Assembly: GCA_943788235.1 (NCBI GenBank)
Contig: CALSPM010000005.1
Span: 372,001-436,000, forward strand
Origin: an uncultured Cyclobacteriaceae bacterium
GTDB taxonomy: Bacteria > Bacteroidota > Bacteroidia > Cytophagales > Cyclobacteriaceae
Direction: 5' to 3'
DNA: 64,000 nt
Shown here: positions 36,424 to 46,420 of the stretch, one piece after another
How the letters are laid out: each line of letters opens with the position of its first letter
Numbering within the stretch: the first letter of the stretch is position 1
The notes under the pieces: model-generated
The model's database searches: none
Seen by the model: only the letters and a program-made list of their open reading frames with translations
What the model was told of the DNA's origin: nothing
Made by a program: the position numbers and the translations under genes

Positions 36424-37506
36424 TTAAATCAGGTTGTCAATTCTACTTTTTTTAATGGCCTGTTCAGCGATTAGGCTGATTTGCTTTATGGCGGTGGGCA
36501 AAGAAGCGAATCGAGGGTCTTGGGTAAGTCCTTGCTGATATCTATAATATATTTGCTGGATGATCACGGCAATTTTTAATAATCCGTAGACATAATAAAA
36601 AATGGGATGTTCCATAGTTCTACCAGTTTTTAACTCATATTGATGGATGATTTCTTCTCTAGTGAGATTACCAGCAAGGTGAGTGGGGCTGAATTGAAGG
36701 CCTTTCATTTCATCTGGATCACTTGGATTCACCCAATAGCCTAAACTTGTACCTAAATCCATTAGAGGATCCCCAAGAGTAGCCATTTCCCAATCAAGAA
36801 CAGCAGAGACCTTGGTCCAGTCATCAGGATTAAGTATCAAATTATCATATTTGAAATCATTATGAATGAGACTTGTGTGGCGGGAGGTCATTTGGTGTTC
36901 ATTCAACCATTTGATGATGAAATCTATTTTTGAGAAATCATCTGTTTTGGCTTGGTAATACCTCTTACCCCAACCCGATATTTGTCGGTCAACATATCCT
37001 TGGGGTCTACCTAAGTCACCGAGTCCTGCCTGTTGGGGATCTACTTGATGTAGTTCTATCAGTGTATCTAACCAAGCGGTAGATATTTTTTTCATTTTAT
37101 TAGCTTTAGGATGCATATCTTGAGGCATACCATGCCTTAATATGACGCCTCTTACTCTTTCCATCACATAAAAAGGAGATCCAATAAGAGTGAGATTTTC
37201 GGTATAATAAAATGGGGTGGGTACTTTGTGATCTACAGATTTCAGTCCAGATAGAATACGATATTCACGACCCATGTCATGACCTGATTTGACTTTTGCT
37301 CCGATTGGGGGTCGTCTAAGCACATATTCAGTATCACCCATTGAGATCAAATATGTCAGATTGGAATATCCTCCAGGGAATTGTTTGATCGTTAAAGGCC
37401 CAGAGGTATTGGGTAGATGGTCCAAAAGGCATGCCTGTAGCCGTGAGATAGGGAGTTCCTCTCCTGGACGCGTAGCGATCGCCTTATCGTTCCAATCCAT
37501 ATTCAT
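36424..37506 (-). CDS. APH-family kinase, ACAD10/11 N-domain or LvaA type
   Basis: A 360-aa phosphotransferase of the aminoglycoside-phosphotransferase fold. Seen: the N-lobe YVLRRPPIGAKVKSGHDMGREY, the catalytic loop HNDFKYDNL (His 215, Asp 217, Asn 222) and the metal-binding VLDWEMATLGDPLMDLG (Asp 238). These are the forms found in the kinase half of ACAD10/11 and in Pseudomonas LvaA, which phosphorylate 4-hydroxyacyl-CoAs, and not in antibiotic-resistance enzymes. It lies 34 bases after the acyl-CoA dehydrogenase on the same strand, which supports that reading. The substrate itself cannot be seen. Confidence 0.85.
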   Translation of the reverse strand: MNMDWNDKAIATRPGEELPISRLQACLLDHLPNTSGPLTIKQFPGGYSNLTYLISMGDTEYVLRRPPIGAKVKSGHDMGREYRILSGLKSVDHKVPTPFYYTENLTLIGSPFYVMERVRGVILRHGMPQDMHPKANKMKKISTAWLDTLIELHQVDPQQAGLGDLGRPQGYVDRQISGWGKRYYQAKTDDFSKIDFIIKWLNEHQMTSRHTSLIHNDFKYDNLILNPDDWTKVSAVLDWEMATLGDPLMDLGTSLGYWVNPSDPDEMKGLQFSPTHLAGNLTREEIIHQYELKTGRTMEHPIFYYVYGLLKIAVIIQQIYYRYQQGLTQDPRFASLPTAIKQISLIAEQAIKKSRIDNLI

Positions 37507-37540
37507 TTATCTTTTAATTCTATTGAATGGATTCATCGGG

Positions 37541-38722
37541 TTAACGGTAATTTTTTAAAATCTGTTTAGCTGTACTGCTTTTGTGTACTTCATCAGCACC
37601 ATCGTAGATACGCGCACTTCGTTCCAGTCTAAACCAAGTTGCCAATATCGTATCATCGGAGATACCCAAAGCACCATGCACTTGAATGGCTCGATCCAAA
37701 ATGCTTTGCATTACATTGGCACAATAAAACTTTATCATTGAAATTTCAATTCTAGCCTTGGAAGCACCGATTGTATCAATTTTATGTGCAGCGTCTTTTA
37801 CCATTAATCTGGCCGCATGGATCTCGGCCCTACTTTCGGCAATCCAATGTTGAATCGTTTGTTTATCCGCTAATGTTTTTCCAGGGGAAATTTTTCTAGA
37901 AACGGCGCGCTTACACATCATATCAAATGCTCTTTCACAGATACCGATCCATCGCATGCAGTGGTGAATTCTTCCAGGGCCCAATCTTTTTTGTGCAATA
38001 GCAAAACCATCGCCTTCGCTTCCCAGTATATTCGCGGTGGGCACTCGACAGTTTTCATATTTTATTTCTGCATGACTGTGCCATCCAGAGCCTTTTTCTC
38101 CCATGACGGAAATATTACGAATGAGATTAAAACCAGGGTTATCGGTGGAAACAATTATCTGACTGGCCATTCTATGAGGATCGGTCCCATGGGGATCACT
38201 GACGACCATGACAATGGCAAAAGTAGCACCATCAGCGGCAGAAGTGAACCATTTATGTCCATTTATCATGTATTCTTCACCGTCCTTGATGGCAATGGTC
38301 CCCATGATGGTTGGGTTAGATCCTGGATGATCAGGTTCCGTCATAGAAAAACAGCTCCTGATCTCACCTGCCAATAGCGGCATGAGGTACTGTGCTTTTT
38401 GCTTTTCAGTACCAAATTCGATTAAGATTTCCATATTACCCGCATCTGGAGCTTGACAGTTGAAGCAATAATGCCCGTAAGGACTGCTTCCCAATAATGC
38501 ACTGACTTCACCAAATGCAGCCACAGATAAACCTAGGCCTCCATATTCAGTAGGAATTTGAGGAATCCATAAACCTGCAGCTTTGACCTTTTCTCTGACT
38601 TTGTCTAGATGAGGAACCACTATATCCCACGGTTTACTATGGTATTTGGTCTCTAGAGGAAATATATGCTCATCCAGTGTGGCCTGAACTTTGGCCAAGA
38701 TTTCTTTTAATTGATCATTCAT
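37541..38722 (-). CDS. Acyl-CoA dehydrogenase, ACAD10/11-like
   Basis: A 393-aa FAD flavoprotein with the full three-domain ACAD fold. Seen: YGGLGLSVAAFGE, YCFNCQAPDAGNMEIL, the FAD-binding CFSMTEPDHPGSNPTIM (about 125-140), INGHKWFTSAAD, GPGRIHHCMRWIG and a C-terminal IYDGADEVHKSSTAKQIL. In the last, Asp stands where the catalytic Glu of medium-chain enzymes (YEGT) would be, as in ACAD11-type proteins. Such enzymes work with an APH kinase to remove a 4-phosphate and give an enoyl-CoA. It overlaps the MaoC gene by eight bases. Confidence 0.92.
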   Translation of the reverse strand: MNDQLKEILAKVQATLDEHIFPLETKYHSKPWDIVVPHLDKVREKVKAAGLWIPQIPTEYGGLGLSVAAFGEVSALLGSSPYGHYCFNCQAPDAGNMEILIEFGTEKQKAQYLMPLLAGEIRSCFSMTEPDHPGSNPTIMGTIAIKDGEEYMINGHKWFTSAADGATFAIVMVVSDPHGTDPHRMASQIIVSTDNPGFNLIRNISVMGEKGSGWHSHAEIKYENCRVPTANILGSEGDGFAIAQKRLGPGRIHHCMRWIGICERAFDMMCKRAVSRKISPGKTLADKQTIQHWIAESRAEIHAARLMVKDAAHKIDTIGASKARIEISMIKFYCANVMQSILDRAIQVHGALGISDDTILATWFRLERSARIYDGADEVHKSSTAKQILKNYR

Positions 38723-39203
38723 CTTTTTTAGTATAAGCTTGACCTATGAATTCAGCCACACAAACGGGTTTTTCAGTACCCTGACATTCGAAGACCACTT
38801 TAAACTTGTAGCGACCCCCTCCGTCAAATTCGTTGAATTCCATCAAGGACAACCTGCCCCGCACCTTGCTACCAGAAAGTGTTGGATGAGGGAATCTCAC
38901 TTTATCTAAGCCATAGTTTACGCCCATAGTGACGTCATTTATTTGGTAAGTCTCGTTAGCGAATTTAGCAGCAAAAGAGAGTACTAAGAAACCATGTGCT
39001 ACCGTTTGACCGTAAGGGGAGTATTTTTTAGACTTTTCTTCATCAAGATGAATCCATTGGGTATCTCCAGTGAGTTCAGCGAAAGTGTTGATCTTCTCTT
39101 GGGTGATTACATTCCATTCGGTAAGTCCCAATTCTTTTCCGATCGCATCTTTCAGATCCGTCAAATGATTAAATGAGGTTGCGTAGGGTTTATCTGTCAT
39201 CAT
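38715..39203 (-). CDS. MaoC-like (R)-specific enoyl-CoA hydratase
   Basis: A 162-aa single hotdog-domain hydratase. The hydratase motif is visible as FAELTGDTQWIHLDEEKSKK, with the catalytic Asp and His, followed by the helix YGQTVAHGFLVLSFAAKF. The ATG at 39203 is chosen; a TTG at 39221 would add six residues. Such enzymes hydrate trans-2-enoyl-CoA to (R)-3-hydroxyacyl-CoA. It lies between two dehydrogenase classes (SDR upstream, ACAD downstream) in one minus-strand operon, fitting a beta-oxidation-type cycle. Confidence 0.9.
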   Translation of the reverse strand: MMTDKPYATSFNHLTDLKDAIGKELGLTEWNVITQEKINTFAELTGDTQWIHLDEEKSKKYSPYGQTVAHGFLVLSFAAKFANETYQINDVTMGVNYGLDKVRFPHPTLSGSKVRGRLSLMEFNEFDGGGRYKFKVVFECQGTEKPVCVAEFIGQAYTKKDE

Positions 39204-39210
39204 TTTATAT

Positions 39211-39984
39211 TTATCCTGCAATTAAAAACCCACCGTCTGCAGTAAAGGTTGAGCCCGTACAATAGCTAGATGCATCAGAAGCAAGAAAGAGGGCAAGTCC
39301 TGCAATTTCATCAGGTTCGGCCATGCGATTCAAAGCCAAATGCTTGGTAAACTGAGCCAAGTTTTTTTCATCTGACCACAAGGCTTTACTGAATTTTGTT
39401 TTAATCAAGCCAGGACAAATGACATTGCTTCGAATCCCTTGCTGGCCCCATTCTTTGGCTTGCGTTTTGGTAAGCATAATCAATCCTGCTTTGCTTATAC
39501 TGTAAAGACCTAGGCCTGCGCTGGGTTTAATTCCTTCTACGGATGAGATATTAATGATAGACCCACCCCCTTTTTCAACCATGGAGGGGCGGCACAGATT
39601 ACTCAGTAAAAAGCAGGCACGCAAGTTGATGTTCATTATTTTGTCAAAGACCCCACCATCTGCTTGATCGATAGGTCCATAGACTGGATTGGTAGCCGCA
39701 TTGTTAACCAAAATATCTATGCCACCGAAGTGGGTAATAGTTTCCTCAACCAGCATTTTGAGTTGCGCTTCATCTCCTACATTACATACGATGCCATGGG
39801 CACTTAAACCTGCTGCGGTGAGGCTATTTACGGTCTTGTCAATGCCTTCTTTTTTTCGACTGCTGATTACGACTTTGGCACCTTGCTCGGCCAATGCCAA
39901 AGCAATAGCGGCACCAATTCCTTTACTTGCACCAGTAATGAGTGCAACTTTTCCCTTTATTTTAAATTTTTCTTTTATGCTCAT
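39211..39984 (-). CDS. SDR-family oxidoreductase
   Basis: A 257-aa classical short-chain dehydrogenase. Seen: the cofactor motif ITGASKGIGAAIA, NVGDEAQ, NNAATNP, the catalytic Ser in INISSVEG and the Tyr-x-x-x-Lys of LYSISKAG, then CPGLIKTKFS and the C-terminal FTADGG. It is the second gene of the minus-strand acyl-CoA operon, eight bases behind the first SDR and just before the MaoC gene. It probably oxidises or reduces a hydroxy/keto acyl-CoA; the direction and chain length are not known. Confidence 0.92.
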   Translation of the reverse strand: MSIKEKFKIKGKVALITGASKGIGAAIALALAEQGAKVVISSRKKEGIDKTVNSLTAAGLSAHGIVCNVGDEAQLKMLVEETITHFGGIDILVNNAATNPVYGPIDQADGGVFDKIMNINLRACFLLSNLCRPSMVEKGGGSIINISSVEGIKPSAGLGLYSISKAGLIMLTKTQAKEWGQQGIRSNVICPGLIKTKFSKALWSDEKNLAQFTKHLALNRMAEPDEIAGLALFLASDASSYCTGSTFTADGGFLIAG

Positions 39985-39992
39985 AATTTTTT

Positions 39993-40733
39993 TTAGATAG
40001 CGAGAGCACCTCCGTTGACATGTAGGGTAAATGCGGTTACGAATCCTGCTTCTTTCGAGGCTAAGAACAGATAAGCATGCCCAATATCATGGGCAGTACC
40101 GATTCTCCCAACAGGAATCATGGCAATACCGGCATCGATCACCTTTTTTGGCATGCTGTCTGACATTTCAGACTTAATAAATCCTGGGGCGACGGCATTT
40201 ACGGTAATCCCATATTTTCCCGTTTCCCTTGCCAAAGATTTGGTAAAGCCAACAATACCTGCTTTGGTTGCCGCGTAATTGGTTTGTCCAAAAGCACCCA
40301 TCGTACCATTGATGGAGGAAGTATTGATGATTCTACCATATTTTGCTTCTCGCATGATAGGAACTACTACTTTGCAAGTATTAAATGCACCCGAGAGGTT
40401 GACATTTAATACAGAATGCCATTCTTCATCAGTCATTTTTAGGAACGACTTGTCTCGGATGATACCGGCATTATTGATCAGAATATCAATACGACCGTAT
40501 CGAGTCATGATCTCAGCTACTGCCGTTTCGACTTGACTTCGCTGGGTAATATCGACTTTTTGAAAGAAGATCTCTCCGCCTTGTTCTGTAATTCGAGCTG
40601 CGGTAGGCTGACCATCGAGGACATCCCAAATGACCACTTTGGCGCCTGCCTCGCAAAAAACCTCAGAGGCACCTTCACCAATTCCCTGTGTACCTCCTGT
40701 GATGATGGCGACTTGTCCGTCTAGTTTGGTCAT
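39993..40733 (-). CDS. SDR-family oxidoreductase (FabG/PhaB-like)
   Basis: A 246-aa classical SDR resembling 3-oxoacyl-ACP or acetoacetyl-CoA reductases. Seen: IITGGTQGIGEGASEVF, VDITQRSQVE, NNAGIIRDKSF, the catalytic SSINGTMGAFGQTNYAATKAGIVGFT with Ser, Tyr and Lys, and VAPGFIKSEMSDSMP. The NAGIxRDxxFLKMT pattern is characteristic of FabG/PhaB. It is first in the minus-strand operon and faces the 821-base gap and the divergent arm of the acyl-CoA island. Confidence 0.92.
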   Translation of the reverse strand: MTKLDGQVAIITGGTQGIGEGASEVFCEAGAKVVIWDVLDGQPTAARITEQGGEIFFQKVDITQRSQVETAVAEIMTRYGRIDILINNAGIIRDKSFLKMTDEEWHSVLNVNLSGAFNTCKVVVPIMREAKYGRIINTSSINGTMGAFGQTNYAATKAGIVGFTKSLARETGKYGITVNAVAPGFIKSEMSDSMPKKVIDAGIAMIPVGRIGTAHDIGHAYLFLASKEAGFVTAFTLHVNGGALAI

Positions 40734-41554
40734 ATTTATTTTTTTAATTTTAATATTTCAAATAATTATTATACTTTCAGCTTGATATTATTTCATGCTT
40801 TATCACTAGTGTAAAATTCTATTGGGCGCTATTCTTTTCAGTAGTTAAAATTTTCACATCTTCTGGTAAGGGGTAGCCTATATTCCTAGACTCATAAAAT
40901 CCCAATATGCTCATATTTTTAGAGGGTTTAATTTCTTACAGTCAAATTAAATGATAATTCCGTCAATATGCTCTAGGAAAGTGCCTAATAAATAAATTAT
41001 CTAACGCTTGAATGGCTCTCGAATTAGTAATACCCAAAAGGCATAGCTGAATTAAAGATAATATGATCTGTCTTATCTTACAATGAGTACGGAACGACTT
41101 TGTCTCTATATAAACGCTTGACTTACCTTGAATTAAAATTTGAGTAAGGCCTATATATCAATTTATTAAAACTGTGAGATGGGCATTTTTGACGTTTTCC
41201 AATGGGCTTTAATGGCTTTTCTTTTTCAATAAAACGCAAAAAAATTTGAGGCGTCAGACATCAATTATATCGGTACACACAATCAATATTTTTTGTATCT
41301 GATCGAAATTAACAAAATACAGAAAGAATTAGGTAGTATGGTCTTCGCAAAAAGCTAAAAATAATCAATCGCCATAGGGGTTATAAAAATAAATTTGTGC
41401 GAGTTTGGAACGAAATCTTGAATTAGATTATTTACTTTTAAAAAAAGAGCCGATCAAATAAATGTTTTTAATCTGAGGCATGTAGCGGAAGGACAGACAA
41501 ATCCCGCCTTACAGGTAAAATGGGATTTATAGAACAACAATAAAAATATTATTA
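40734..41554. other. 821-base intergenic region between the two acyl-CoA arms
   Basis: AT-rich, with no convincing gene. A 31-aa frame (40819-40914, minus, MSILGFYESRNIGYPLPED) has no recognised family. A TAAATTTG at 41390-41397 would fit a -7 element for the plus arm, but no TTTG lies 19 bases before it. AAATCCC at 41499-41505 can pair with GGGATTT at 41522-41528 just before the SDR start. The length suits two divergent promoters with operator sites, but no clear long inverted repeat was seen. Confidence 0.5.
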
Positions 41555-42302
41555 ATGTCATTTAAGGGGAAAGTTATTGTAATTACTGGAGCAGGATCCG
41601 GTATCGGAGCAGCAGCCGTGAGGTTTTTTGCCAAAAAAGAGGCTTTTGTAGTACTAGCTGATATCTCAGTGGAAAAAATGGTAGATATTGCCGATTCTAT
41701 TCCTATGGAATGCATGATTCAAGAAACCGATGTATCAAAATATGAGCAAATGCAAAGTTTGGTAGTTGCTGTAATTAAAAAATATGGGCGCATTGATGTA
41801 TGGGTAAATAATGCAGGTATTGGTCCGAATCACATGCTGAAAACAGCAGATCATAGTTTACAAGATTGGGAACGTGTGATTGCGGTTAATCAGTCGGGTG
41901 TATTTTATGGCATGAAAGTAGTACTACCCAGTGATGTTAAAGCAAGGCAACGGAAATATCGTGAATGTCGCTTCACTTGCAGGATTAAGAGCCTCAGGCA
42001 ATAATATTTCTTATGTAGCGAGCAAATTTGCAGTAGTCGGAATGACCAAGGCAGCCGCATTGGAATATGCAAAAAAAAATATTCGAATAAATGCAGTTTG
42101 TCCAGGATATACCGATACGAATATGCTCCGTCAACTGTTGGAGGTAAAGCCTGATATAGAAGATAAATTAAAGAGCCATATACCTATGGGTCGTTTTGGA
42201 AAAACGACAGAGGTGGCTACAGCTATAGGTTGGTTGGCCTCAGACGAAACACAATTCATGACTGGCCAAACCTTGGCATTGGACGGTGGAACCTCGCTCT
42301 GA
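41555..42302 (+). pseudogene. SDR-family oxidoreductase with a single frameshift
   Basis: Together the two frames give a normal SDR of about 248 aa. The first (from ATG 41555) holds VIVITGAGSGIGAAAV, NNAGIGPNH and GVFYGMKVVLP. The second (from about 41931) holds GNIVNVASLAGLRASGNNISYVASK with catalytic Ser, Tyr and Lys, then CPGYTDTNM and LDGGTSL. The join is at CCCAGTG (41927-41933), where one base is in excess. As both halves are otherwise intact, this is a recent mutation or a sequencing error. It heads the plus arm of the acyl-CoA island. Confidence 0.85.
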
Positions 42303-42528: not shown

Positions 42529-43308
42529 ATGATAATGGAAACATTAAAGATCACTAGGAAGGAAAATTATGCACTTGTTCAGCTCCGCCGGGGTAAGGCC
42601 AATCCGATCAATCATCAGATGGTTAAAGATTTGATTACGACTTTTACCGCTCTGCAGGAAGAGGCTGAAATGAAAGGAGTGATTCTAACGGGGACACTTA
42701 ATTTTTTCTCAGCTGGTTTAGATGTGGTGGAGCTTTATGATTATGATGAAGATCAGATGAGAAATTTTATGATTGATTTTGACGTCATGCACGTACAGTT
42801 ATCCCGTTTCCCAAAGCCAATGATTTGTGCAATTCCTGGTTATTGCCCGGCGGGCGGAACGGTCATCGCGATTACAGCTGATTATCGCATAATGAACGAG
42901 GATCCTAAGTTTTCTATCGGCTTAAATGAAATGAAGGTGAATGTTCAAATCACGACAAACCTTATTGAAGCTTACACCTATTGGTTGGGTACAAGTCTGG
43001 CCAATAGATATATTCTCGAAGGAAAATTACTCACGCCTCCAGAGGCCCTAAAAGTGAATCTTGTAGATGAGATCTGCCCTGCTGATGAGGTCATGGTGCG
43101 TGCAGAATTGAAGTTGCAAGAATTCCTTCAAGCGGATTCGGATATCTTTGGTTACACCAAATCAAAATTGAGAGAAAAATGGTATGCGGGTCAGGAGTTA
43201 AAAGGTGGATTGGATCTTGAACAAACGCTGAAGATATGGTGGAAGCCTGAAATGAGAGCCAAAATAGCTTCTTTGATTGCGAGTTTTAAAAACAAAAAAA
43301 ATGAATAA
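42529..43308 (+). CDS. Enoyl-CoA hydratase/isomerase family protein
   Basis: A 259-aa crotonase-fold protein. The oxyanion-hole parts are FFSAGLDVVELYDYD and PGYCPAGGTVIAITADYRI. The Glu usual for water activation after CPAGG is not evident, and the sequence looks closer to enoyl-CoA delta-isomerases (ECI type), so isomerisation of an unsaturated acyl-CoA is as likely as hydration. The ATG at 42529 or 42535 may be the start. It overlaps the next gene by eight bases and so belongs to the plus arm with the reductase and thiolase. Confidence 0.88.
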   Translation: MIMETLKITRKENYALVQLRRGKANPINHQMVKDLITTFTALQEEAEMKGVILTGTLNFFSAGLDVVELYDYDEDQMRNFMIDFDVMHVQLSRFPKPMICAIPGYCPAGGTVIAITADYRIMNEDPKFSIGLNEMKVNVQITTNLIEAYTYWLGTSLANRYILEGKLLTPPEALKVNLVDEICPADEVMVRAELKLQEFLQADSDIFGYTKSKLREKWYAGQELKGGLDLEQTLKIWWKPEMRAKIASLIASFKNKKNE

Positions 43309-44296
43309 ACAATTATTATTGATGAAAAGACCTGTTGAATTCCCCTCGGAAGATACGTGGGCATTTACTGAGGAGCAGACGCCGGAGCCTAGAGAAGGTC
43401 AACTGTTGATTCGTCAACATTTGATTAGTTTAGATCCTGCCATGAGGGGTTGGATCAATGCATCTAGATCTTATATAGAAGCGGTAGAACTGGGCGATGT
43501 TATGCGAGCAGGGACGGTGGGTCAAGTGGTCAAGGCAGTGAATCATCCAAAATTTAAAGAAGGAGATTTGCTTTCGGGATGGGGTGGAGTACAACAATTT
43601 ACCCTTACAGATGGGAAAGGATTCCATAAAATTAATACCGAGCTAGCCGATCCAAAAGTCCATATGAGTACTTTGGGGATGCCGGGAATGACGGCTTATT
43701 TCGGTATTTTAGAGGTAGGTAAAATTAAACCGGGGGATACCGTGGTCGTATCAGGTGCCGCGGGGGCCGTAGGCTCTGTAGTAGGTCAAATAGCTAAAAT
43801 TAAAGGCTGCCGAGTAGTTGGAATTGCAGGAGGCGAAGAAAAATGCCATTATCTAAAAGAAGATTTAGGGTTTGATGAGGTCATTGATTATAAGTCAGGA
43901 AATCTAAGGAAAGATTTAAAAAAAGCTTGCCCGGAAGGAATAGATGTGTATTTTGATAATGTTGGTGGTTATACGCTTGATACGGTATTGACCAGAATTA
44001 ATAGGCAGGCACAAATTGTGATTTGTGGGGCCATTTCCCAATACAATGAAAAAGCAATTCAGGGGCCAACAAATTATTTGTCTTTGCTTGTCAATCGTGC
44101 CACGATGGAAGGGATGGTAGTCTTTGATTATGCTAAAAGGTATCCTGAGGCAGTCATACAATTGGCTCAATGGATGAAAGAGGGTAAGCTGAAATCTCGT
44201 GAAGATGTTTACTTCGGCATTGAGCATTTTTATGAAACTTTTTGCCGTTTATTTTCGGGAGAAAAAATTGGAAAACTAATTTTAAATATAAAATAA
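43301..44296 (+). CDS. Zinc-independent NADP-dependent oxidoreductase (CurA/PTGR-like MDR)
   Basis: A 331-aa medium-chain reductase without zinc ligands. Seen: [33 protein letters not shown], the [44 protein letters not shown] nucleotide-binding block split over about 125-175, and YFDNVGG. Relatives reduce the double bond of enones such as 2-alkenals and 15-keto-prostaglandins. The ATG at 43301 ([11 protein letters not shown]) is preferred to a frame extension from 43277. It lies between the isomerase and thiolase genes, so an unsaturated intermediate is its likely substrate. Confidence 0.92.
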
Positions 44297-45512: not shown

Positions 45513-46420
45513 ATGAGCAAAGCATCGTTTATTTTGGATATTAACCTACCGGTAGTGGTAGCGTCCATGTTTCTAATTTCAGGCCCACAAATGGTCATAG
45601 AATGTTATAAAAATGGGGTATTAGGGGCTTTTCCTGCTTTGAACCATCGGTCTACGGAAGGGTTTGAATAATGGATTGTCGAAATTAAAACGACTCTGAA
45701 AGATTGGGAAGCAGCAACAGGAAAAAAAAGGAGCCGCTTTTGGAGTTAATTTAATCCTCCACAAAACCAATCCAAGATTGCAAGTAGATTTAAAAATTGT
45801 GGTCAAGCACGAAGTGCCCTAATCATTACTTCCCTTGGCGCTGTCTCCGAGTTGATTGAGTCGGTTCATGGTTATGGTGGCTTGATACTAGTTTCTGCCG
45901 GTGCAGGAGGCCATGCAGGGACGATCAATCCCATCGCTTTATAGGTGAAATTCGGTCTTTTTTTGATAAAACTATTTTACTTATGGGTTGCATCAGTACC
46001 GGACAAGACGTGGCTGCTGCGCTACAAATGGGTGCTGATCTGGCTTATATGGGGACATGATTTATAAATACAACTGAGAGCGAAGCTTTACCCGAATATA
46101 AGCAAATGATTATTGAGTCCAGTGCGAGCGATGTTATCTACACAGCGGTGATTTCCGGAGTACCTGCCAATTTTTTAAGACCAATTTTGGAGCAGATGGG
46201 CATTACAGAAGAGATGTGGAAAAAAACAGTTGAGGTAGATTTTGGTAATGAACTGATCGCCAATGATGAGGCCAAGGCGTGGAAAACCATTTGGTCCGCC
46301 GGACAAGGGATTATCAAAATAGGTGACAGCCTGAAGATATCGATTTTGGTAGCGCGATCGAAAAAAGAGTTTAAGGTCGTCATTGAAACCCATGGTAAAT
46401 TATTGGCACAATTCAATTAA
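45513..46420 (+). pseudogene. Decayed nitronate monooxygenase (2-nitropropane dioxygenase family)
   Basis: Pieces in all three frames add up to an NPD-family FMN enzyme: LPVVVASMFLISGPQMVIECYKNGV, FGVNLILHKTNPRLQ, LIITSLGAVSELIESVHGYGG, AGAGGHAGTINP, MGCISTGQDVAAALQMGADLAYMGT and a C-terminal 105-residue frame from 46106. Lesions: in-frame stops after EGFE and after YMGT (TGA for the usual Arg), at least three frameshifts, and a missing segment of about 22 residues between GYGGLI and SAGAGG. No full product can be made. It probably once completed the plus-arm operon. Confidence 0.9.

Follow-up and report, generated by a model that had tools for sequence, protein, structure and literature searches.

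Separate genes for an ACAD10/11-type kinase and dehydrogenase in an uncultured Cyclobacteriaceae bacterium: a probable 4-hydroxyacyl-CoA module

Recent work has identified the mammalian enzymes that take the 4-hydroxyl group off fatty acids (PMC11342911, 2024; PMC12440821, 2025); according to the later paper's Discussion, it is still unclear how exactly they work and where 4-hydroxy acids come from. In the mammalian proteins ACAD10 and ACAD11 a kinase and an acyl-CoA dehydrogenase are fused, whereas in Pseudomonas the same chemistry is reported for the separate genes LvaA and LvaC of levulinate breakdown (PMC6692424). A Burkholderia ACAD10-like pair, likewise encoded by separate genes, is reported to have replaced both parts of ACAD10 in vitro (PMC11342911). 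Here we describe a kinase gene (KIN) and a neighbouring acyl-CoA dehydrogenase gene (ACAD) from a 64,000-nucleotide stretch, “the window”, of an uncultured Cyclobacteriaceae bacterium (assembly GCA_943788235.1, contig CALSPM010000005.1, positions 372,001 to 436,000), whose genome comprises 3.25 Mb on 14 contigs at 98.5% completeness. We consider it probable that the two encode a 4-hydroxyacyl-coenzyme A (CoA) kinase and a phosphate-eliminating dehydrogenase, which would feed hydroxylated and perhaps unsaturated fatty acids into R-type beta-oxidation. Such a 4-hydroxyacyl-CoA route was suggested in a first-pass annotation of the sequence, and as a deduction it is now well supported by ACAD10/11-specific residues, the ACAD tree and the relatives of the kinase. 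Its basis is the family to which each protein belongs, the conservation of catalytic and phosphate-site residues, gene linkage and co-occurrence; what the enzymes do and in which sequence, what the neighbouring genes contribute and which substrate is used are inferred from these.

Among solved structures, ACAD11 stands on top of the list for the window ACAD (294, 292 and 287 bits), followed by 4hr3 (256 bits), all others scoring at most 148 bits; identity to mouse ACAD11 is 42% for the ACAD and 34% for KIN. The ACAD10/11 site is described, in mouse ACAD11 numbering, as comprising the catalytic aspartate D753 and the phosphate-binding residues R626, H634 and R637, together with a generally conserved R631 and a helix-breaking proline (PMC12440821, PMC11342911), and non-conservative changes at R626, H634 and R637 are reported to hit the dehydrogenase activity hardest (PMC12440821). 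All tested ACAD11 residues for 4-phosphoacyl-CoA are present in the window protein as R246 (R626), H254 (H634), R257 (R637) and D374 (D753), with R251 standing for R631. Counterparts of R626, H634, R637 and D753 were found in 97/97 rows of the family versus 0, 0, 3 and 1 of 22 other ACADs, respectively, while that of R631, invariant in the family, is common to 16 of the 22. At P92 of the APD motif, which was mapped to human ACAD11 Pro463 by motif only, proline occurs in 97/97 and 4/22 rows. These counts by themselves are partly circular, since the rows were initially divided by motif, and two rows that read HAMR rather than HCMR were retained as family members; whole-alignment trees, from which the signature columns were not removed, reproduce the same split. 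HAMR replaces HCMR in the ACADs of loci L067 and L083, and the motif cysteine is therefore not invariant in the family.

Two ACAD trees were built, a quick one with 99 of 118 rows and a careful one with 41 rows, namely 40 hand-picked from the same 118 plus the LvaC of locus L124. Family and ordinary ACADs are split with a support of 100/99 in the careful tree and with an approximate likelihood ratio (SH-aLRT) value of 99 in the quick tree. In the 41-row tree the window ACAD falls in a 17-row clade (100/98) of Bacteroidota, Chloroflexota, Planctomycetota, Myxococcota and one Pseudomonadota sequence, sister (99/97) to a 16-row clade that contains mouse ACAD11 (100/99), and the quick tree agrees. 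The Pseudomonadota ACAD11-type proteins that were sampled belong to another clade than the window ACAD, and LvaC of two Pseudomonas operons branches further out, at an exact place that is weakly supported (83/26). Together with the ACAD10/11-specific residues, the split sets the dehydrogenase apart from ordinary chain-length ACADs.

The catalytic residues of KIN are D217, N222 and D238, and R80 and R174 are the equivalents of CoA-contacting arginines. D217, N222, R80 and R174 correspond to D220, N225, R86 and R176 of ACAD11 and are invariant in 28/28 aligned kinases; molecular dynamics is reported to put R86 and R176 of ACAD11 at CoA (PMC12440821). With ACAD11 and ACAD10 (PDB 8v3u, 8v3v, 2wbi) the window pair shares every catalytic or phosphate-site residue examined in the dehydrogenase, as well as the catalytic and CoA-contact residues of the kinase. 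It differs from them in consisting of two genes, with an ACAD from a sister clade, amid a MaoC-type hydratase, short-chain dehydrogenases (SDRs) and a thiolase. As the open reading frames are separate, this is not an ACAD10/11 fusion protein, though the kinase is of that type.

An ordinary beta-oxidation ACAD lying next to an unrelated APH kinase of antibiotic, choline or thiamine type has to be considered as well, given the generic annotation and a fold shared by choline and aminoglycoside kinases, whose structural scores equal that of the ACAD11 chain. At E<=0.001 the solved relatives of KIN are 9o56 (317 bits, 45% identity), 3dxp (162 bits) and ACAD11 (145 and 141 bits), with Rv3168 (30 bits) and 25-hydroxy steroid kinase (28 bits) as weak matches, and no established antibiotic-resistance or choline kinase is among them. 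Although 9o56 is deposited under the name “aminoglycoside phosphotransferase”, it groups in the tree with Bacillota kinases from loci of the same ACAD family; a literature search for its code returned no paper. NCBIfam models for thiamine kinase, LxmK and macrolide kinase score at most 34 bits against KIN, their cut-offs being at least 299. In an unrooted tree KIN lies in a 29-row clade (99), distinct from those of ACAD11 and 3dxp (100), of Bacillota with 9o56 (98) and of LvaA; when a further three APH proteins encoded in this genome were added as outgroup, their branches measured 8-10 changes per column and were scattered through the tree. An antibiotic or choline kinase was rejected on sequence, by the family-model scores, the solved relatives and the unrooted tree. 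The structural comparison is less discriminating. The predicted model of KIN (mean predicted local distance difference test 92.2, 28 sequences) best matches 3dxp (Z 32.6, root-mean-square deviation (rmsd) 2.8 over 317 residues), followed by 25-hydroxy steroid kinase (Z 27.1 and 26.6, with rmsd 3.5 and 3.4 over 331 and 322 residues) and Rv3168. ACAD11 reached Z 20.8 over 229 residues, level with choline kinases, which may be due to the short aligned part of its chain, and 9o56 is absent among the 50 structural matches listed. The fold supports the superfamily only and does not single out ACAD11, and therefore the assignment of KIN rests on its sequence. With the signature residues, the ACAD tree and the identical occurrence of both genes across genomes (below) added, an unrelated kinase is very improbable.

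Distribution was examined in 296 Bacteroidota genomes at E<=1e-60 for ACAD, 1e-40 for KIN, 1e-70 for a PRK07035/DHRS4-like SDR (SDR35), 1e-90 for a double-bond reductase (MDR) and 1e-50 for a crotonase-fold protein (ECH); counts include the window's own genome unless stated, and p values ignore relatedness. ACAD and KIN occur in the identical 22/296 genomes (hypergeometric p 1e-33), or in 21 and 21 of 295 without the window's genome. Tallied by genus, ACAD is found in 14 of 140, KIN in 14, SDR35 in 11, MDR in 7 and ECH in 6. The two genes lie at most 150 bp apart in 14 of the 22 genomes and at most 3 kb apart in 18; one pair is separated by 7.8 kb and three are on separate contigs. Five of the 22 ACADs show identities at the level of the ACAD11-type clade (40-43%), in genomes with kinases 40-51% identical to KIN, and in four of these five cases the two genes adjoin. 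Of 59 closer relatives sampled, 20 have ACAD and 21 have KIN, with 20 having both. SDR35 was found in 15/296 genomes, and 15/15 of these are inside the KIN/ACAD set (p 3e-20; 14/14 without the window's genome), even when it is distant or on another contig (G308, G026, G046, G334, G342, G238). MDR occurs in 8/296 genomes, 5 of them within the 22 (p 7e-5; 4/7 without the window's genome).

A contig scan kept the best 80 of 592 confirmed relatives, so that it leans to the relatives of the window. Neighbouring genes were counted for 88 anchors, after exclusion of eight near-duplicate loci; a kinase lies within 3 kb of the ACAD in 59 (50 of the 71 anchors for which 3 kb was available on either side). 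SDR35, taken at an identity of at least 40%, is near 28/88 (24/71), and the other two SDR types near 7/88 (6/71). Of the 39 clade-B loci, four of which were placed by near-identity outside the tree, 30 include KIN, which in 27 is no more than 150 bp away. The pairing of KIN and ACAD is more than chance, and SDR35 is likely the third component of the module.

The coordinates of the genes are collected in Table 1. The four motifs quoted in the first-pass annotation are found in the translations where it had put them, and kinase and dehydrogenase are intact, adjacent open reading frames. A MaoC hydratase and two SDRs had been reported as joined to the pair; they share its strand, in the head-to-tail order FabG-like SDR, SDR35, MaoC, ACAD and KIN, with gaps of 34 bp or less or short overlaps. 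The listed start of the MaoC gene is TTG, and an ATG lies a few codons further in. The divergent gene set is likewise present, as had been noted, although it is not fully intact, its first SDR (SDR3) being frameshifted. For ECH, which had been taken as part of a beta-oxidation set, the closest solved chain is a mitochondrial isomerase and not a hydratase. For MDR, the PDB matches were 4b7c first, then CurA-like, plant double-bond, prostaglandin and 2-alkenal reductases. The intergenic region between the gene sets measures 815 bp in three congeners and 1080 bp in a fourth, and an Rfam search of the whole window gave no match.

Table 1. Genes and intergenic region of the KIN/ACAD locus (positions within the window)
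Feature	Position	Strand	Basis and remarks
KIN, APH-fold kinase of ACAD10/11-kinase type, 360 aa	36424..37506	-	Pfam APH 159 bits; motifs HNDFKYDNL, VLDWEMATLGDP
ACAD, ACAD10/11-LvaC family dehydrogenase, 393 aa	37541..38722	-	Pfam Acyl-CoA_dh_1 129 bits; motifs FNCQAPDAGNME, GPGRIHHCMRWIG
MaoC-type enoyl-CoA hydratase	38715..39221	-	Pfam MaoC 75 bits; closest solved chain Rv0130
SDR35, PRK07035/DHRS4-like short-chain dehydrogenase, YSISK	39211..39984	-	Pfam adh_short_C2 226 bits; closest PDB DHRS4
FabG-like 3-oxoacyl reductase / 3-hydroxyacyl-CoA dehydrogenase, YAATK	39993..40733	-	Pfam adh_short_C2 219 bits
Divergent intergenic region, 821 bp, between both gene sets	40734..41554	.	no Rfam match
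SDR3, third SDR, frameshifted in the window's genome	41555..42302	+	intact 248 aa in four congeners
ECH, crotonase-fold protein, probable delta3-delta2-enoyl-CoA isomerase	42529..43308	+	closest solved chain mitochondrial 3,2-trans-enoyl-CoA isomerase (ECI1)
MDR, CurA / prostaglandin-reductase / 2-alkenal-reductase type double-bond reductase	43277..44296	+	likely ATG start 43301
THIO, acetyl-CoA C-acyltransferase near PRK07108	44326..45507	+	606 bits vs cut-off 615
Nitronate-monooxygenase/FabK-like gene, broken, two frames	45513..46420	+	intact 326 aa in congener L017

Related clusters were found in other genomes. In one of another family (G195, run L134) an acyl-CoA ligase, MaoC, FabG, a PIG3-type reductase, MDR, an isomerase-like gene, SDR3, KIN, ACAD, SDR35 and a long ACAD follow each other in one direction, with identities to the window of 45% (MaoC), 45% (FabG), 63% (MDR), 49% (isomerase-like), 59% (SDR3), 49% (KIN), 42% (ACAD) and 62% (SDR35); the search there turned up no thiolase of the kind seen in the window. 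In G126 and G218, SDR35, ACAD, KIN, an SDR3-like gene and MDR are gathered inside about 9 kb. Among culturable environmental bacteria, KIN, ACAD and SDR35 occur together in Aquiflexum lacus, Lunatibacter salilacus and Mangrovivirga halotolerans, and kinase and ACAD in Spirosoma terrae. A search that covered part of the literature found no description of the module in Bacteroidota.

In the proposed route, KIN would use ATP to phosphorylate the 4-hydroxyl of a 4-hydroxyacyl-CoA, and ACAD would remove the phosphate from the 4-phosphoacyl-CoA through the “rebound” chemistry of flavin adenine dinucleotide that has been proposed for ACAD10/11, the flavin being redox-active yet not consumed, giving trans-2-enoyl-CoA with no net oxidation. 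The MaoC-type enzyme would hydrate this to (R)-3-hydroxyacyl-CoA, the FabG-like enzyme would oxidise the latter and the thiolase would then cleave, ending the round. The isomerase and MDR may deal with unsaturated or alkenal-derived chains, and SDR35 probably interconverts 4-oxo- and 4-hydroxyacyl-CoA. The ACAD10 kinase is reported to strongly prefer the R form (PMC11342911), and therefore an SDR that epimerises through the ketone would be a sensible partner. For activation, a ligase such as that of the G195 cluster, or one of the four full AMP-binding ligases encoded elsewhere in the window's genome, could serve. Kinase and phosphate-eliminating dehydrogenase would thus allow hydroxylated, perhaps unsaturated, fatty acids to get past the 4-hydroxyl block in beta-oxidation. 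Perhaps the locus goes further than this; it is a tentative suggestion that the window ACAD stands for an uncharacterised third branch, with SDR35 as a dedicated third 4-hydroxyacyl-CoA enzyme which may, for example, make the 4-hydroxy epimer preferred by the kinase via the 4-oxo form. With MDR and the ECI1-like isomerase this could form a self-contained route for oxidised, unsaturated fatty acids, those derived from 4-hydroxyalkenals included, and the cluster would then parallel the mammalian set of ACAD11, DHRS4, prostaglandin reductase and ECI1.

The likeness to LvaA and LvaC raises the question of a short-chain pathway for levulinate or 4-hydroxyvalerate, encoded by an lva operon of different make. 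Here too kinase and ACAD are separate genes, the ACAD signature residues are the same, and an SDR adjoins the pair as LvaD does in the lva operon. To this extent the comparison made in the first-pass annotation stands; the pair is nevertheless closer to ACAD11, as the plasmid copies of LvaA and LvaC are 28% and 38% identical to the window kinase and ACAD, compared with 34% and 42% for mouse ACAD11. Plasmid LvaC itself is 37% identical to mouse ACAD11 by our measurement, as against 56% reported for LvaC of P. putida (PMC11342911). The LvaA compared, a plasmid copy, is without both arginines corresponding to R80 and R174 which KIN and ACAD11 have in common, and the LvaC branch of the tree does not include the window ACAD. 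To LvaD, SDR35 shows 32% identity, similar to the other SDRs (31% and 35%). A tblastn search of the window with two LvaB proteins at E<=1 gave a single chance match of 31 residues and 22 bits; however, a cluster of Pseudomonas citronellolis was reported without an lvaB homologue (PMC6692424), and the absence of LvaB is therefore not decisive. Neither an AMP-binding enzyme nor a match to the ligase LvaE (E<=1) was found in the window, which is a weak criterion as lvaE is described as not essential (PMC6692424). MaoC, isomerase, thiolase and alkenal reductase are missing from the lva operon of locus L040, whereas the neighbours in the window resemble a fatty-acid set. A levulinate operon was set aside as the best reading on residues, tree and the lack of LvaB and ligase in the window, and we regard it as unlikely.

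The operon of L040 (5518-12693), in which LvaB is annotated, lies on the Pseudomonas aeruginosa plasmid p12939-PER, and an identical LvaB is encoded on a second P. aeruginosa plasmid. A histidine phosphatase gene directly follows the kinase in L035 (9056-9760) and L036 (9074-9769), from Pseudoalteromonas and a Deinococcus plasmid, and such a gene is also reported beside the LvaA homologue of P. citronellolis (PMC6692424).

Alternatively, the hydroxyl targeted by the kinase could belong to a bulky acyl chain of isoprenoid or steroid-like nature, the phosphate being lost as in 25-hydroxysteroid dehydration. The 25-hydroxy steroid kinase (9fsg, 9ft5) has the same superfamily fold, is among the closest folds and weak sequence matches of KIN noted above, and is described as phosphorylating a hydroxyl for later elimination, with the phosphate removed by a separate lyase activity (PMC8449060). 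Moreover, a pair of extra PimC/PimD-like ACAD genes follows KIN in the congeners G002 and G006 and in the distant locus L043. The closest PDB entries to the first subunit of this pair are Tcur3483 and 4x28, which we take to be sterol side-chain enzymes. Yet KIN is 18-20% identical to 25-hydroxy steroid kinase in structural alignments, compared with 45% to 9o56 and 34-37% to ACAD11 and 3dxp; the CoA arginines and the phosphate-site ACAD indicate a CoA ester; and the extra ACADs are absent at the KIN site, the part of the window's genome that was inspected for them. A steroid-like chain is therefore improbable, slightly more so than levulinate. In L019 (9580-12922) and L020 (3162-6468) the ACAD pair comes after the kinase with a PIG3-type reductase, and in L020 pair and reductase separate the kinase from the gene which comes right after it in L016-L018.

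Besides the level structural score of ACAD11, several observations weigh against a 4-hydroxyacyl-CoA module for fatty acids, or against some of its parts. Chain length and substrate are not fixed by sequence, the window has no AMP-binding ligase, and we know of no characterised member of the clade to which its ACAD belongs. Oleate hydratase, which might supply the hydroxy acids, gave no match in the window's genome; full-length matches (E below 1e-200) occur in 7/296 genomes, only G026 being among the 22, and nearly all other matches listed are short and N-terminal, so that this candidate was rejected. SDR35 is below threshold in 7 of the 22 KIN/ACAD genomes, and ECH occurs in 7/296 genomes with 2 within the 22 (p 0.09; 1/6 among ACAD carriers without the window's genome), which is no excess over chance. 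Two genes near the pair are broken in the window's genome: SDR3 is split into frames at 41555-42004 and 41931-42302, where the frameshift may be an assembly error, and the nitronate-monooxygenase/FabK-like flavoprotein gene, intact in L017, shows 62% and 90% identity in its two halves. Of nine congeners, KIN and ACAD are open in five and both broken in G008, while neither was matched in G001, G004 and G009 (90, 81 and 67% complete). Stops interrupt both genes in G008 (L033, 479-2413), which indicates ongoing loss of the module in some genomes, or else a poor assembly. With such broken or absent genes, the module is accessory and dispensable. Purifying selection seems to act on the intact genes, eight of which have a ratio of nonsynonymous to synonymous substitution rates (dN/dS) of 0.05-0.18 against G002 and 0.06-0.30 against the closer G003.

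The kind of system is already known, and the window pair is a new bacterial branch of the ACAD10/11-Lva chemistry. A free-standing bacterial kinase with a dehydrogenase from a separate clade means that the two half-reactions could be studied apart. Among the new points, the SDR partner of the pair is the most useful; SDR35, found with kinase and dehydrogenase in all 15 genomes where it reached the threshold, is a concrete candidate for this role.

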